Assembly: GCA_944324495.1 (NCBI GenBank)
Contig: CALUWN010000006.1
Location: forward strand, 1-64,000
Direction: 5' to 3'
Source of the DNA: an uncultured Mucispirillum sp.
GTDB lineage: Bacteria; Chrysiogenota; Deferribacteres; Deferribacterales; Mucispirillaceae
Length of the DNA stretch: 64,000 bases
Part shown: positions 55,687-62,640 of the stretch, piece by piece
How positions within the stretch are numbered: the first letter of the stretch is position 1
Layout: each line of letters starts with the position of its first letter
The notes under the pieces: generated by a model
Databases searched by the model: none
The model's input: only the letters and a program-made list of their open reading frames with translations
Told to the model about the DNA's origin: nothing
Translations under genes and position numbers: made by a program

Positions 55687-57081
55687 ATGAAAGAAATCTC
55701 AGGCGATTCTAAAATTGTCATGGGCTATATCTATTCTGCATTATTCTGGGGTGTTATAGGTCTTGTATTAGGTCTTCTCATCTCTGCTCAAATGTGGAGT
55801 GTTAGCTTTAATTTTGGAGAGTATTTTTCATTCGGCCGTCTTAGAACGGTTCACACAAATATGCTTGCTTATGGGCTTGGTATTACAGCTGAAATGGGTG
55901 CGTTTTATTACATTATAGGACGCCTTACTAAACGTAATCTTATTTTCCCAGGGCTTGCTAAGTTCCAACTTGTATTTTATAACTTGGTTGTACTTGTTGG
56001 TATGATTTCTCTTTTTATGGGTTATACTCAATCACTTGAATATGCAGAAGGCGAATGGTATTTTGACCTTGGTGTTGTAGTGTCTTGGGTATTATTTGCA
56101 ATTAACGTTGTAGGTACTATTCTTACTAGAAAAGAAAAACATATGTATGTTTCTTTATGGTATATTTTAGCAACTATCGTAGCTGTTGCTGTATTATACA
56201 TTGTTAACAACTTACATATTATTGCAGGTTTAGGTAAATCTTACCATTTATTTGCAGGCTTAAATAGTGCAAACGTTGAATGGTGGTATGGTCACAATGC
56301 AGTTGGTTTCTTATTTACTACACCAATTTTAGCTGTATTCTACTATTTCTTACCGAAATCAACAGGTATGCCTATATACAGCCACAGATTATCTATCCTT
56401 TCTTTCTGGTCATTAATTTTCATGTATTTATGGACAGGTGCTCACCACCTTGTTTACACTCCACTTCCTGACTGGTTACAAACATTAGGTATTGTATTTA
56501 CAATCCTTTTAATTGCACCATCTTGGGGTTCTGTTGTAAACGGTTACTTAACACTTGCACCAGACTGGTCTAAACTTAGAACAGCTTACTTAGCAAAATT
56601 CTTTATTGCTGGTATTACTTTCTATGGTTTACAAACATTACAAGGTCCTACACAAGGTCTTCGTGCTGTAAGTTCTCTTATTCACTATACAGACTGGGTT
56701 CCAGGACACGTTCACATGGGTACGATGGGATGGGTTGTATTAACTGTTACAGCTGCAATCTATTATATAACTTCAAAAGTGTATAAAACAGAAATATACA
56801 GTGAAAGCATTGCTAATATCCATTTCTGGCTTGTACTTATAGGTCAGATTGGTTTCTCTATTACAATGTGGATTACAGGTATCCGTCAGGGTCTTATGTG
56901 GAAAACCGCTAATGCTGATGGAACATTACAGTATTCATTCATAGAAACGGTTGTTGGTAACTATCCATATTGGATGGCTAGATCTGCATTTGGTGTAATA
57001 TTCATTGTTGGTATGCTGTTTTTCCTCTACAATTTCATTATGACAATTGTAAAAGGCAAACAAAACTTATCTAATCAATAA
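55687..57081 (+). CDS. ccoN: cbb3-type cytochrome c oxidase subunit I
   Basis: The 464-residue integral membrane catalytic subunit has about 12 helices and reduces O2 to water. Haem b ligand His56 is in RTVHTNMLAYG; CuB ligands are His203 (WWYGHNAVG) and His253/His254 (WTGAHHLVY). Tyr247, six residues before the histidine pair, is in place for the cbb3-type Tyr-His cross-link. Haem ligands His341 and His343 lie in DWVPGHVHMGT. Length matches CcoN (about 470). GGGGGA precedes the ATG, and ccoO follows 12 bases after the stop. Confidence 0.97.
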   Translation: MKEISGDSKIVMGYIYSALFWGVIGLVLGLLISAQMWSVSFNFGEYFSFGRLRTVHTNMLAYGLGITAEMGAFYYIIGRLTKRNLIFPGLAKFQLVFYNLVVLVGMISLFMGYTQSLEYAEGEWYFDLGVVVSWVLFAINVVGTILTRKEKHMYVSLWYILATIVAVAVLYIVNNLHIIAGLGKSYHLFAGLNSANVEWWYGHNAVGFLFTTPILAVFYYFLPKSTGMPIYSHRLSILSFWSLIFMYLWTGAHHLVYTPLPDWLQTLGIVFTILLIAPSWGSVVNGYLTLAPDWSKLRTAYLAKFFIAGITFYGLQTLQGPTQGLRAVSSLIHYTDWVPGHVHMGTMGWVVLTVTAAIYYITSKVYKTEIYSESIANIHFWLVLIGQIGFSITMWITGIRQGLMWKTANADGTLQYSFIETVVGNYPYWMARSAFGVIFIVGMLFFLYNFIMTIVKGKQNLSNQ

Positions 57082-57093
57082 GGAGTATGAAAT

Positions 57094-58005
57094 ATGAGCG
57101 AAAATAATAACAGTATTTACAGCAAAGGGCTTATTTTTACAGTTGTTGCATTAGTTGTTATTCTTATTGGTACAATCGTAACAGTATTTGTTCCAATGAT
57201 GACTTCAGCAATGCACCCTAAACTTTCTAATATGCAGGAAAACCCTTATACTCCATTGCAACTTGCTGGACGTGATGTATATCAAAAAGAAGGCTGTATT
57301 AACTGCCACTCTCAAACAGTACGTCCATTAAAAGCAGATGTATTAAGATATGGCGAAATTTCACAACCTGGTGAAAGTGCTTTTGAACGTCCATTTTTAT
57401 GGGGTTCTAAAAGAACTGGTCCAGATTTAGCTAGAGTTGGCGGTGTTTATTCTGACGAATGGCAAAAAGCACACATGATTAACCCACAACATTTTTTCCC
57501 AAGCTCAAATATGCCAAAATATCCATGGCTTGCTGAGAAAAAATTAGACCCAGCAACTGTTGAAAAACACGCAAAAGCATATGGGTTAAACTACAAACCA
57601 GAAGATATTACAGCACTTGAAAATGCTACAGAACTTGATGCATTAGTTGCTTATCTTCAACAATTAGGTATCTATGTGGAAAACACTCATGCAATTAAAG
57701 CTGATGAAGCTGCTTTTGAGAATGCAACAAATCCTAATTTAAATAACCCTGAAAAAATTGCAAGAGGCGAAGAAATTTATAACTTATTATGCATTGGCTG
57801 CCACGCTGAAAATGGTAAAGGTCAAGCAGAAGGTTATGACCTTACAAACTTAACATTTGCTGAAGCATTACCAGACTATACTGATGGTATGATATTTCTT
57901 ACAATTGCAAATGGTCTTGAAGGTGCTATGCCTGGGCATTTAAAAATAATGACTAAAGATGATATTTGGTCAGTTGCTGCTTATGTTAAAACATTAGCAA
58001 AATAG
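57094..58005 (+). CDS. ccoO: cbb3 oxidase subunit II (CcoO) fused to an extra cytochrome c domain
   Basis: The 303-residue membrane-anchored dihaem cytochrome feeds electrons to CcoN. One N-terminal helix (GLIFTVVALVVILIGTIVTV) is followed by the CcoO haem site CINCH (Cys68, Cys71, His72), with RPLKADVLRYGE and the distal Met140 (SSNMPKYPWL). A second cytochrome c domain of CcoP type starts at about residue 220: CIGCH (Cys233, Cys236, His237) and Met279 (EGAMPGH). Standard CcoO is about 200-230 residues with one haem. The missing CcoP domain of the following gene has evidently moved here. Confidence 0.93.
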   Translation: MSENNNSIYSKGLIFTVVALVVILIGTIVTVFVPMMTSAMHPKLSNMQENPYTPLQLAGRDVYQKEGCINCHSQTVRPLKADVLRYGEISQPGESAFERPFLWGSKRTGPDLARVGGVYSDEWQKAHMINPQHFFPSSNMPKYPWLAEKKLDPATVEKHAKAYGLNYKPEDITALENATELDALVAYLQQLGIYVENTHAIKADEAAFENATNPNLNNPEKIARGEEIYNLLCIGCHAENGKGQAEGYDLTNLTFAEALPDYTDGMIFLTIANGLEGAMPGHLKIMTKDDIWSVAAYVKTLAK

Positions 58006-58022
58006 TATAAAGGAGGAATAAT

Positions 58023-58232
58023 ATGTCTAATTTTGATGAACAAGATGATATCCCTAGCTTAAACCGCAAGGATACAGAAAACAATCTTCCTTTAGGCTGG
58101 GTAATCTTTTTTCTGGCATTAATTGTATGGGGTATTTACTACATATATGCATACACTCCAAGCTTTAGTGGTTGGACACAAAGTGGTGCATATGAAACAG
58201 AAAACCCTATCCAAGAACCAGTAAAACCATAA
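58023..58232 (+). CDS. Minimal CcoP: N-terminal membrane anchor only
   Basis: The 69-residue product matches the FixP/CcoP N-terminal domain: a short cytoplasmic part, DIPSLNRKDTENNLPLGW leading into one membrane helix (VIFFLALIVWGIYYIYAY), then TPSFSGWTQSGAYE. The DNPLP-W and Y-P-x-F/W-GW patterns are typical. No CxxCH haem site follows, whereas normal CcoP is about 300 residues and dihaem. It ends in a Pro-rich tail. AAAGGAGGA precedes the ATG by 5 bases. Confidence 0.85.
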   Translation: MSNFDEQDDIPSLNRKDTENNLPLGWVIFFLALIVWGIYYIYAYTPSFSGWTQSGAYETENPIQEPVKP

Positions 58233-58248
58233 TTTTAGGGAGCATAAA

Positions 58249-58470
58249 ATGCAAGATAACGGAAACACTATTGCTACAGAAACACTAGCACAAGAAGGTG
58301 AACAATTACAGTCTGCTGCTGCAGGTTATATTATGCTAGGATTTGAATTTCTTCTAGTACTCATCTTAATTGGAATAGCTGTTTACTTCTTTTCTTCAAA
58401 AAGAAAAGCGTCAGTTGAATCTCCAAAATATTCTATGATGGAGGATGATGACGATGATGATAGCAAATAG
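58249..58470 (+). CDS. Small CcoS-like / CcoQ-position membrane protein
   Basis: The 73-residue product has a polar Gln/Thr N-terminus, one membrane helix (GYIMLGFEFLLVLILIGIAV) and a tail FSSKRKASVESPKYSMMEDD ending in an Asp run. It occupies the usual CcoQ position, but the tail closely resembles that of CcoS downstream (FSSKKEQFDDIEGPKYRMLD, then DDD). It may be a duplicated CcoS-like assembly protein or a CcoQ that acquired such a tail. The Asp codons (GAT repeats) contain the ATG starts of ccoG in another frame. Confidence 0.75.
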   Translation: MQDNGNTIATETLAQEGEQLQSAAAGYIMLGFEFLLVLILIGIAVYFFSSKRKASVESPKYSMMEDDDDDDSK

Positions 58471-59620
58471 TGTTCTCCGTGGTAAAATATACAGGCTGCT
58501 ACAATTTATTGTAGTAGTCTGTGCTTTAATTATACCTTTTATAAAAACATCAAATGGCAATAGTCTTTTTAGGTTTGATGTATCTACACTACAGCTTTAT
58601 GCATTTAATACGGTAGTTAGTTTTGCAAGTTTCTTTTCTGCTTTTATTGCAATTTTATTATTTACATTTCTGTTTGTATTTACTACACAACTTTTAGGCA
58701 GGGTTTGGTGTGGCTGGCTTTGTCCGCAATCATTTTTTTCTATAAGAATTGAATCATATTCAAAAAAAATTAAAAATAAGACTATGAGAAAAGTAGCAGC
58801 TGTTTTGCTTGCTTTTGTATTTGCTTTAGTTTTAACTTTAAACTGGATGATGTATTTTGTATCACCATATGATTTTATATCATCACTTAAAAGCAGCAGT
58901 ACAATGGTTACTATTGGTGTAGTATTATTTTTATTTATTTTTGTAGATTTTGTACTTGTAAGGTTTAAATGGTGTAAATATGTTTGCCCATATTCCAAAT
59001 TTCAAGTTGTAATGACTGATGATGATACTCTATATGTTGGTATGATACCGGGGAAAGAAAAAGAATGTATAGATTGTAAAGCCTGCATAAGAGTGTGTCC
59101 TACTCATATTGACCCAAGGAAAAACCCTGATGCAGATTGTATATATTGCGAAACTTGCGTTACAGCATGTAATCAAGTATTCCAAAAGAAAGACCATCAT
59201 GAAGGTATCTTAGGTTATGTGTGGGGTAAAGGCAATAAATTTAATTTTAAACGTCCAAATCTAATTGTTACTTTTAGTGTTTCTATAGTACTTTTTATTA
59301 TACTTATATACAGTATTATTTCTACAAGTGAACCTTTTATAATAAAAGTTGATGATAATGTTAAATCTTTAGGTAATGGAGTTTATACTGTTAAAGTAGA
59401 GATGAAAAGTAATTTAGAAAAAGCTGTTAGAGTACATTTTTCAAACCCTGATAATGTGGCAGAGGTTTCTCCTGCAGGTGTAAGGGTATTTATTAAAGAA
59501 AAAGTGGAAAGTACTTTAACCATTAATACGTTAAAAGAAATACCTAATGGAAAAGTTAAAATACAAGCTGTATATGACAGGAAAAAAGACCCAATAGTAT
59601 TTGAAGTTAATTTAAAATAA
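58454..59620 (+). CDS. ccoG: cbb3 oxidase accessory protein CcoG (FixG-like)
   Basis: The 388-residue membrane protein has five hydrophobic segments and two 4Fe-4S sites: ECIDCKACIRVCPTHIDP (near 198-215) and DCIYCETCVTACNQVF (near 222). RVWCGWLCPQSFF and WCKYVCPYSKFQ carry further conserved cysteines. CcoG reduces Cu(II) for cbb3 assembly. The start lies in the Asp-run of the previous gene; ATG codons occur at 58445, 58448, 58454 and 58457, and GGAGG at 58440-58444 best fits 58454 (overlap 17 bases). The C-terminal soluble domain is FixG_C-like. Confidence 0.94.
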   Translation: MMIANSVLRGKIYRLLQFIVVVCALIIPFIKTSNGNSLFRFDVSTLQLYAFNTVVSFASFFSAFIAILLFTFLFVFTTQLLGRVWCGWLCPQSFFSIRIESYSKKIKNKTMRKVAAVLLAFVFALVLTLNWMMYFVSPYDFISSLKSSSTMVTIGVVLFLFIFVDFVLVRFKWCKYVCPYSKFQVVMTDDDTLYVGMIPGKEKECIDCKACIRVCPTHIDPRKNPDADCIYCETCVTACNQVFQKKDHHEGILGYVWGKGNKFNFKRPNLIVTFSVSIVLFIILIYSIISTSEPFIIKVDDNVKSLGNGVYTVKVEMKSNLEKAVRVHFSNPDNVAEVSPAGVRVFIKEKVESTLTINTLKEIPNGKVKIQAVYDRKKDPIVFEVNLK

Positions 59621-59636
59621 ATGAGGACTATATAAT

Positions 59637-60074
59637 ATGAAACCTATGATTGCATTAATAGCAACAGGTGTTGTGTTGCTTTTAGTTATGTTATATTTCG
59701 GGAATAAAAGCTTTGAAGGTACATTTGAAACAAATGTGTACCAAAATTCTACTAAGTATGATAAAACTGCACCTATTATAAAAGATATGGAAAAATTGAT
59801 TACTAATGTTTCTCTTGATAATGTTGGTGATACAAAAACACAAATTACTTATAATAATGATATTCAATCTAAATATGCTGATGCAGTAATTACAGGTATT
59901 GAAGTGACACAACCAAATAAAAATGGTAGTATAATGGCAGTATTAGATAATGGTAATAAGGTTTATAGTATAAACCAAAACTTATCTGCTGGTTTATATA
60001 CTGTTATATTTTTTATATCGATTGCTGATAGTAAAAACTATTTAAAAATTCTAAAATCTGTATATGTTGAGTAA
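59637..60074 (+). CDS. FixH/CcoH-like membrane protein
   Basis: The 145-residue protein has one N-terminal membrane helix (IALIATGVVLLLVMLYFG), then KSFEGTFETNVYQNSTKYDK and a periplasmic beta-rich domain ending VYVE. Position between ccoG and ccoS and the overall plan match FixH/CcoH, an assembly factor of cbb3 oxidase, but sequence similarity is weak to my eye. A ribosome-binding GAGGAC lies upstream. ccoS starts 6 bases after its stop. Confidence 0.72.
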   Translation: MKPMIALIATGVVLLLVMLYFGNKSFEGTFETNVYQNSTKYDKTAPIIKDMEKLITNVSLDNVGDTKTQITYNNDIQSKYADAVITGIEVTQPNKNGSIMAVLDNGNKVYSINQNLSAGLYTVIFFISIADSKNYLKILKSVYVE

Positions 60075-60080
60075 TATCTG

Positions 60081-60236
60081 ATGAAGTCATTGTTTGTGCT
60101 TATTCTTTTAAGTTTAGTTGTTGGAATTAGTGCTTTTTTTTGGTTTATATTTTCCAGTAAAAAAGAACAGTTTGATGATATAGAAGGGCCAAAATATAGA
60201 ATGTTGGATGATGATGACACAGATGAACCAAAATAA
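60081..60236 (+). CDS. ccoS: cbb3 oxidase assembly protein CcoS
   Basis: A 51-residue protein with an N-terminal membrane helix (MKSLFVLILLSLVVGISAFF), FIFSSKKEQFDDIEGPKYRM and the acidic end LDDDDTDEPK. The F.WA..SGQFDDLEGPA.R.L.DD pattern is the CcoS hallmark. CcoS is needed for cofactor insertion into cbb3 oxidase. It starts 6 bases after the FixH-like gene and overlaps ccoI: the GATGATGATG run of its tail supplies the ATG codons of the next frame. Confidence 0.93.
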   Translation: MKSLFVLILLSLVVGISAFFWFIFSSKKEQFDDIEGPKYRMLDDDDTDEPK

Positions 60237-62640
60237 AAAGGATACAGAAAAAGCCGTATGTGCTCACTGTTCTTCAGAAGTTAATCCAAAACGAGCAATA
60301 AAGGAAGATGATAAATACTTTTGCTGCGAAGGTTGCAGGTCTGTTTATCATTTAATTAATGATGAAGGCTTTGGCTCATTTTATACAAAAAGGACAGACT
60401 GGGAAGATGCCCCACCAGCAGAGCAGGTGGAAGCTGATGAAGAATATTTTGAAACATCAATAAAACCTTTAAAAAATGGTGATTTAGAGTTATCTATAGT
60501 AATTTCAGGGATTCGTTGTGCAGCCTGTGTTTGGCTTATTGAGTCATCTGCTCAAAAAGATGAACGCATTAAGATGTTCCGCATTAACTATGCAAACCAT
60601 AAAGCAAAAATTATCTTTAATCCACAGGACATATCAGTTAAAGAGGTTTTACAAAAAATTACACGCCTTGGATACTGCCCATTACCGTCAACCAATATAG
60701 AATCAATCCACGATAAAGAGCGTAAGGATTATTTTTACAGGTTTGGAGTAGCTGCGTTTTTTACTATGCAGGTAATGATGTATTCTATCGCTAATTATAC
60801 AGGCTACTTTAAAGGAATGGATGAAAATTTATATTTTCTTTTTAAACTTTTATCATGGGCTCTGGCTACTCCAGTACTTTTATATTCAGCAGCTCCATTT
60901 TTTCAAAAAAGCTTTGCTGCTATAAAGCATTTTCATTTTACTATGGATACATTGGTAGCCTTAGGAGCAGGAACTTCATATTTATATAGTGTGGCAGCAA
61001 TATTTTTAGGTTATGAAACATACTTTGATACATCTGTAATGATAATAACATTAATATTATTAGGCAGATTTATTGAAGCTGGAGCAAAACAAAAGGGTAG
61101 TAATGCAGTTGCTAAACTATTATCATTAAAACCAAAAAATGTTAAAAAAGTATTAAAAGATGAAAATGGAGAATATTCTTTTGTAACAATACCAATAGAG
61201 CAGCTTAACAAAGACGAACTCTTTGAAATATCTGCAGGAAATAATGTGGCAGCAGATGGCAAAATTATTTCAGGATTTTGTGAAATAGATGAATCTATGC
61301 TTACAGGTGAGCCTATGCCTGTTGAAAAACAGGAGGGAGCAGAAGTATATGCGGGTACAAAAGTAATTAATGGTACATGTATTGTAATGGCAGAAAGAGT
61401 AGGGCAGGATAGCTTTCTTTCAAAAATTGCAGCATCAGTTGATGATGCTCAAAGCTCTAAAGCACCGATACAAGATGTGGCAGATAATTTTATTGGTAAA
61501 TTTGTACCATTTGTATTGATTGTTGCATTATCAACTTTTCTGTACTGGTATTTATTTGCTTCAAATGGAGCAGAATTATCTATTATGCGTGCTGTATCTG
61601 TGCTTGTAATAGCCTGCCCATGTGCTATGGGGCTTGCAACTCCACTTGCCATTATTTCATCATCTACTAAACTTTCAGAAACTGGTATAATTTTTAAAAA
61701 TGGTGAAGCAATAGAACGATTTGCATATGTAAATGACTTTTATTTTGATAAAACAGGAACTATTACAAAAGGTGATATGAGTGTTAGTGAATACAAGCTT
61801 ATTACTAACTGTTCATCAATTATTAACTTAATAACTTCTGCTGCATTTTATTCAAAACACCCAGCATCAAAAGCAATATCACTCTTAAATAATGAACTAT
61901 TTACATATGAAACTTTTGAAGAAAAAGCGGGTGAGGGTATAGATGCTAGAATAAAAGGTAACCATGTATTAATCGGTTCAAGAAAATTTTTAACTAAAAA
62001 TAATATATTAATTTCTAAAGAATATGAAGAAGTTGTAAATGATTATTTAGAAAAAGGTTTAACTTTAGTATTTGTTTCAGTTAACAGTATTTTTGTTGGT
62101 ATATATGGTATTTCTGATACAATAAGGCAGGAAGCAGCAGATACTATAGCAGAACTTCAAAAATCAGGAAATACAATATCTATTATAACTGGTGATAATG
62201 AAAAATCTGCTGGTATTATATTAGGTAAAGCAGGAATTAATGCAAATATTATCGCAAATGTTTCTCCATTTGATAAAGGCAAAATTTTACAGAGTGCAGT
62301 AGATACTAAAAAAACTGTTATGATAGGTGATGGTATTAATGATGCAATTGCTCTAACTTCTGCAAGTGTGGGAATATCTATGAGAAATTCTACTGATATT
62401 TCTATGGAAAGTGCATCTGCAGTTTTGCTTCGTAATGATTTATCAATAATCAGTAAATCTCATAAAATATGTAAAAAAACACTCAAGATTATAAAAGAGA
62501 ATTTGTTTTGGGCTTTTTCATATAATATTATTGCAATACCTTTGGCTGTTTCTGGGTTAATACATCCTGTAATGAGTGCAGCATTTATGAGTTTTAGTTC
62601 ATTATTTGTTGTAACAAATTCAATGCGTATTAGAAAATGA
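60223..62640 (+). CDS. ccoI: Copper-exporting P1B-type ATPase CcoI (FixI-like)
   Basis: The 805-residue membrane ATPase moves Cu(I) for cbb3 oxidase assembly. An N-terminal zinc-ribbon-like part (CAHCSSEVNPKRAI, FCCEGCRSVYHL) and a heavy-metal domain with GIRCAACVWLI (near 100) are followed by eight helices. VIACPCAMGLATPLA contains the CPC metal site, DKTGTITKGD the phosphorylated Asp, SKHPASKAI the HP motif, and MIGDGINDAIAL the hinge motif. Starts at 60208, 60211, 60214 and 60223 are all in frame; I prefer 60223 (MNQNKKD), overlapping ccoS by 14 bases. It ends 4 bases from a convergent gene. Confidence 0.93.
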   Translation: MNQNKKDTEKAVCAHCSSEVNPKRAIKEDDKYFCCEGCRSVYHLINDEGFGSFYTKRTDWEDAPPAEQVEADEEYFETSIKPLKNGDLELSIVISGIRCAACVWLIESSAQKDERIKMFRINYANHKAKIIFNPQDISVKEVLQKITRLGYCPLPSTNIESIHDKERKDYFYRFGVAAFFTMQVMMYSIANYTGYFKGMDENLYFLFKLLSWALATPVLLYSAAPFFQKSFAAIKHFHFTMDTLVALGAGTSYLYSVAAIFLGYETYFDTSVMIITLILLGRFIEAGAKQKGSNAVAKLLSLKPKNVKKVLKDENGEYSFVTIPIEQLNKDELFEISAGNNVAADGKIISGFCEIDESMLTGEPMPVEKQEGAEVYAGTKVINGTCIVMAERVGQDSFLSKIAASVDDAQSSKAPIQDVADNFIGKFVPFVLIVALSTFLYWYLFASNGAELSIMRAVSVLVIACPCAMGLATPLAIISSSTKLSETGIIFKNGEAIERFAYVNDFYFDKTGTITKGDMSVSEYKLITNCSSIINLITSAAFYSKHPASKAISLLNNELFTYETFEEKAGEGIDARIKGNHVLIGSRKFLTKNNILISKEYEEVVNDYLEKGLTLVFVSVNSIFVGIYGISDTIRQEAADTIAELQKSGNTISIITGDNEKSAGIILGKAGINANIIANVSPFDKGKILQSAVDTKKTVMIGDGINDAIALTSASVGISMRNSTDISMESASAVLLRNDLSIISKSHKICKKTLKIIKENLFWAFSYNIIAIPLAVSGLIHPVMSAAFMSFSSLFVVTNSMRIRK

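Follow-up and report, generated by a model that had tools for sequence, protein, structure and literature searches.

Organization of the cbb3 oxidase operon

The window, by which we mean the whole 64,000-nucleotide stretch of DNA analysed here (G+C 29.9%), carries the gene order ccoN-ccoO-ccoP-ccoQ-ccoG-ccoH-ccoS-ccoI on its forward strand, from 55687 to 62640 (Table 1). The product of ccoN scores 338.5 bits against Pfam COX1 and 495 bits against the TIGR00780 ccoN model, under the latter's cut-off of 583, and its residues 5–457 align to the cbb3 CcoN 9g6b_A (5.7e-129) with the haem and CuB histidine motifs in place. A CcoN with C-family motifs and a FixO-type cytochrome are what identifies a cbb3-type (C-family) haem-copper oxidase, and the operon has both; the canonical CcoNOQP layout was not found, CcoO having two CxxCH motifs and CcoP none. 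The class stays cbb3 because of the catalytic subunit and the assembly genes. With the canonical enzymes (Pseudomonas stutzeri 3MK7/5DJQ, Rhodobacter capsulatus 6XKW) the operon shares CcoN, the N-terminal domain of CcoO, a CcoQ-like protein, CcoG/H/S/I and the CcoP anchor, but it places its c haems differently, with two on CcoO and none on CcoP where the canonical form has one on CcoO and two on CcoP. Layouts are written below as c haems on CcoO plus c haems on CcoP, so that the operon is 2+0 and the canonical form 1+2.

Table 1. Genes and haem c sites of the oxidase operon (positions in the window)
Feature	Coordinates	Strand	Basis
ccoN, catalytic subunit, 464 aa, haem b and b3-CuB	55687..57081	+	COX1, TIGR00780, 9g6b_A alignment
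ccoO, dihaem subunit, 303 aa	57094..58005	+	FixO, Cytochrom_C/Cytochrome_CBB3, NF011054, PDB profile and structure matches
First haem c site of CcoO, CINCH, residues 68–72, candidate distal Met140	57295..57309	+	Invariant in alignment
Second haem c site of CcoO, CIGCH, residues 233–237, candidate distal Met279	57790..57804	+	Invariant in alignment
ccoP, membrane anchor only, 69 aa, one TM	58023..58232	+	FixP_N over cut-off, alignment, purifying selection, present in 33 Deferribacterota loci
Probable ccoQ, 73 aa, one TM, acidic tail	58249..58470	+	Weak FixQ match, position, KYxMxxDDD tail
ccoG, assembly ferredoxin-type protein	58445..59620	+	TIGR02745, 161 bits, under cut-off, covers 17–368
ccoH	59637..60074	+	Pfam FixH, 22.6 bits against cut-off 23, plus position
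ccoS	60081..60236	+	TIGR00847 and FixS, both over cut-off
ccoI, copper P-type ATPase	60208..62640	+	E1-E2 ATPase, HMA and ATPase-cat_bd domains

A CcoO subunit with a second cytochrome c domain

CcoO comprises an N-terminal transmembrane segment and CcoO domain (residues 1–196), a linker (about 197–208) and a C-terminal cytochrome c domain (about 209–303), here called the fused domain. The initial annotation had read the protein as 303 residues long with two CxxCH sites and two candidate distal methionines, and each of these readings held. When the residues were shuffled 20,000 times, two CxxCH motifs never came up; every cysteine and histidine of the motifs is invariant across the aligned CcoO of 22 relatives, and so are the candidate distal ligands Met140 (in an NMP motif) and Met279 (in an MP motif). 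Pfam FixO matches residues 10–172 at 219.8 bits, and a profile search of the PDB matched residues 5–196 to the solved CcoO subunits 9g6b_B and 3mk7_B at about 1e-75; on sequence, residues 1–196 read as an ordinary CcoO. Cytochrom_C/Cytochrome_CBB3 matches follow at 221–301, and for residues 209–292 the best PDB profile match was the CcoP of 3mk7 (3mk7_C, 1.7e-18), ahead of other cytochromes c. An AlphaFold2 model gave the same picture for each domain taken singly: the C-terminal domain was best matched by 3mk7_C (Z 13.1, rmsd 1.8, 89 residues aligned) and the N-terminal part by the CcoO 9g6b_B (Z 10.9, rmsd 3.5, 131 residues), the placement of the domains relative to each other not being firm in a model of middling confidence built from a 14-sequence input (pLDDT 74, pTM 0.61). 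The fused domain is a cytochrome c domain, with CcoP as the closest match of known structure, and its dN/dS of about 0.12–0.22 within the genus indicates purifying selection.

The fused subunit is already catalogued, since the NCBI model NF011054/PRK14486 ('subunit II/cytochrome c') likewise describes a single chain of about 294 residues in which a cytochrome c domain comes after the CcoO domain. The CcoO of the window aligns with it over its full length (2–289 of 294) at 340.7 bits, under the curated equivalog cut-off of 447, and for this reason we speak of the same architecture and do not call the protein a member; the cut-off is passed in 5 of 51 genomes of the phylum. The model is silent on a haem-free CcoP such as the window operon has.

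The CcoP stub and the probable CcoQ

The description of CcoP as a 69-residue anchor without haem was borne out. Its whole translation contains no cysteine, no histidine and no CxxCH, and it scores 28.4 bits against FixP_N (PF14715), over the gathering cut-off of 24.9; it fails TIGR00782, in which two cytochrome c domains follow the anchor, with only residues 17–49 matching the N-terminus of that model. Aligned to one-haem CcoP proteins, the stub follows their anchors up to and slightly beyond the conserved YTPxxxGWxQ (here YTPxxxGWTQ), after which the haem domain starts in haem-bearing CcoP, and it stops soon after this motif. A Shine-Dalgarno-like sequence lies upstream of both this ORF and ccoO. 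Within the genus, the dN/dS of the stub is roughly 0.15–0.5, and purifying selection on both stub and fused domain means that neither comes from a frameshift or is in decay; a frameshift or split-gene artefact was rejected on these grounds and because the same layout and reading frames recur in 30 members of the order. The best rows of a phmmer search of the PDB with the stub were photosystem II W helices (E 0.004), which most likely match by chance as transmembrane segments and were not retained, and CcoP 9g83_v ranked third (0.013); the identity of the stub as a CcoP anchor was decided by the Pfam match and the alignment, not by these rows.

In the genome from which the window comes, a draft of 62 contigs that is 98% complete, the COX1 gene is single-copy and a domain search found no second cbb3-type cytochrome subunit. 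A separate full-length ccoP, which the initial annotation named as counter-evidence, was looked for in the same assembly, and no second or full-length copy was found. That one nevertheless lies elsewhere or was lost in assembly, leaving the stub as its remnant, is extremely improbable: the genome is indeed a draft, but its lone FixP_N match over the cut-off is the stub itself, selection maintains that stub, and a one-contig relative in the genus (G007, 2.3 Mb) and many near-complete genomes carry it too. On gene content, the total of two c haems given in the initial annotation is supported.

The ORF at 58249–58470, previously left unnamed, is probably ccoQ, a name drawn only from its position and its tail, both of which its relatives share. 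Its FixQ (PF05545) match falls under the gathering cut-off (20.2 bits against 29, E 5.5e-4).

Distribution of the 2+0 layout

Full-length dihaem CcoO was found in 36 of 51 Deferribacterota genomes, counted as rows matching the NF011054 profile, and a haem-free CcoP stub lies next to it in 33 of the 34 loci read among these 36 genomes (L002–L031, L049, L050 and L051). The exception, G048 (L048:3267-4817), combines a dihaem CcoO with a one-haem CcoP. Comparing gene structures in related genomes, as the initial annotation had proposed, returned the same dihaem CcoO and stub in 30 members of the order; the 2+0 layout is old and is the rule in the whole order. As to whether it was already known as standard for the lineage, the genome counts show it to be standard and the fused subunit has its NCBI model, but no paper describing the layout was found in the open-access literature, to which our search was confined, and an earlier description is possible.

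Outside the phylum, the same 2+0 layout occurs in Nitrospirota (L056, L057) and Anaeromyxobacter (L059, L068). Two other arrangements each share part of it. In the 2+1 forms (L048, L060, L061, L062, L063 and L082) CcoO is dihaem as in the window, but CcoP keeps one haem, for a total of three. The one-haem CcoP forms of Chlorobiaceae (L072, L089) and Nitrospirota (L087) have two c haems in all, as the window does, but split them between one on CcoO and one on CcoP.

Several genomes of the phylum depart from the rule in other ways. In the f9 genomes G047 and G046 (L046:2642-3787 and L047:3489-4484), a mono-haem CcoO accompanies a haem-free CcoP, giving 1+0; the DNA between ccoO and ccoP, which is repeat-rich in L046, holds no remnant of a fused domain, and neither genome has a Cytochrome_CBB3 match over the cut-off. 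In a 76%-complete genome of family f4 (G037, L055:234-2051), a 444-aa ORF takes the place of CcoN and is followed by a highly divergent mono-haem CcoO of 160 aa; no CcoP stub comes after that CcoO, and the oxidase is possibly degenerate. The phylum survey gave no cbb3 CcoO match in all three f3 genomes (G016, G023, G030) or in G012, G028, G036 and G050; the oxidase is thus unevenly spread across the phylum. In G033 (L029:1498-2447), ccoO appears to change frame near its end, the cytochrome domain being completed in another frame, which may be an assembly error or a real frameshift.

Origin of the arrangement

In a tree of the CcoO domain, the 2+0 rows share one branch with the 1+0 rows at modest support (84/80), and the 2+1 rows sit in two separate places. 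In a tree of the cytochrome domain, a short domain with few columns and weak deep branches, the canonical CcoP domains 1 and 2 are sisters (100/98), as if by tandem duplication, and the fused domains fall outside both. This tree and the 2+1 genomes together argue for separate gain and loss, and they also mean that a total of two haems did not necessarily come about by reduction from three. The initial annotation had the c haems falling from three to two; the end point stands, but the fall assumes that the proteobacterial layout is ancestral, and 1+1 and 2+1 lineages exist. Going by the sequences, the 2+0 arrangement probably came about by CcoO gaining a cytochrome c domain at its end and CcoP losing its haem domain.

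A different history, possible but rather doubtful in our estimation, is that 2+0 represents an old, separate branch of cbb3 enzymes whose CcoP haems were never present or were lost early, with the three-haem proteobacterial form derived and the f9 genomes having gone further, to one c haem. The initial annotation instead had the haem c domain moving from CcoP to CcoO, and we regard this literal relocation, in which a single event excised the CcoP haem domain and attached it to CcoO, as quite improbable. CcoP is the best solved match of the fused domain in both profile search and model, and the stub stops just where the CcoP haem domain would start, as a relocation would have it, but the 2+1 genomes keep both domains, the domain tree holds the fused domains apart from canonical CcoP domains 1 and 2, and the event would need a one-haem CcoP donor nesting with the fused domain, whereas the CcoO and CcoP domains of L060 and L061 are on separate starred branches. 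Gain plus loss forms part of a broader reading that we hold with good confidence, namely that the operon encodes a complete cbb3 (C-family) cytochrome c oxidase of 2+0 architecture, which electrons would enter by way of the fused domain. Judged from its genes, the 2+0 enzyme is most likely a working cbb3 oxidase.

Earlier reports and annotation of related operons

The available portions of papers on the lineage mention only a cbb3-type oxidase (PMC5285517, PMC12887300, PMC6896113), and those of reports on other groups list ccoN/O/P with no domain layout noted there (PMC8862662 and PMC13253579, anammox; PMC8235581, Desulfuromonas; PMC10278575, Nitrospirota). A 2026 paper on Deferribacter describes the oxidase as 'only partially encoded', stating that CcoO is mono-haem and that ccoP/ccoQ are 'not evidenced' (PMC13186404). 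Given the order-wide pattern, the mono-haem CcoO and missing ccoP would appear to be a misreading; if Deferribacter shares the layout of its order, those anaerobes have a whole high-affinity oxidase. Annotation pipelines that require ccoP call such operons incomplete. The number and place of the c haems (1+2, 2+1, 1+1, 2+0, 1+0) vary in evolution, and this variation can show which haem electron entry requires.

Proposed electron path and other cytochromes of the genome

In Rhodobacter, electrons pass from cytochrome c2 to CcoP cp2, cp1, CcoO co, haem b and b3-CuB (PMC7876108). Because the only c haems of the window enzyme are those of CcoO, it is reasonable to suppose, with the initial annotation, that electrons would enter through the fused domain; the change of donor that it also suggested is a conjecture. 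A periplasmic or bc-complex cytochrome c would reduce the C-terminal CcoO haem (233–237/Met279), which would pass electrons to the N-terminal haem (68–72/Met140), an order suggested by the homology of the N-terminal haem to co, and from there they would travel by way of haem b to the b3-CuB centre of CcoN, at which O2 would be converted to water. Peters et al. 2008 reportedly found that CcoQ-CcoP contacts are needed for stability, which suggests that the stub, with its helix only, would probably serve CcoN and CcoQ as a partner in structure or assembly.

The fused domain might instead be no fixed relay but a mobile cytochrome on its linker, fetching electrons from the bc complex, which we think unlikely. 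The linker of about a dozen residues between two compact domains is variable, and membrane-anchored carriers such as cytochrome cy serve cbb3 in Rhodobacter, but the linker here is short against the 69-residue linker of cytochrome cy (PMC7876108).

The genome has other cytochrome c matches: contig 1 carries a bc-type cluster, contig 6 an FccA-like dihaem protein and contig 39 a 429-aa protein. The cluster (L044:12419-14590, about 80.4–82.6 kb of contig 1) comprises a Rieske protein, a b6-like cytochrome b, a subunit-IV-like protein and a cytochrome c subunit with four CxxCH motifs, not one, the Rieske and subunit-IV-like calls being a reading of the DNA. From its gene content, it is a likely, or at the least plausible, quinol-oxidising partner and electron source of the cbb3 enzyme. 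The gene of the FccA-like cytochrome adjoins that of a flavocytochrome c flavoprotein.
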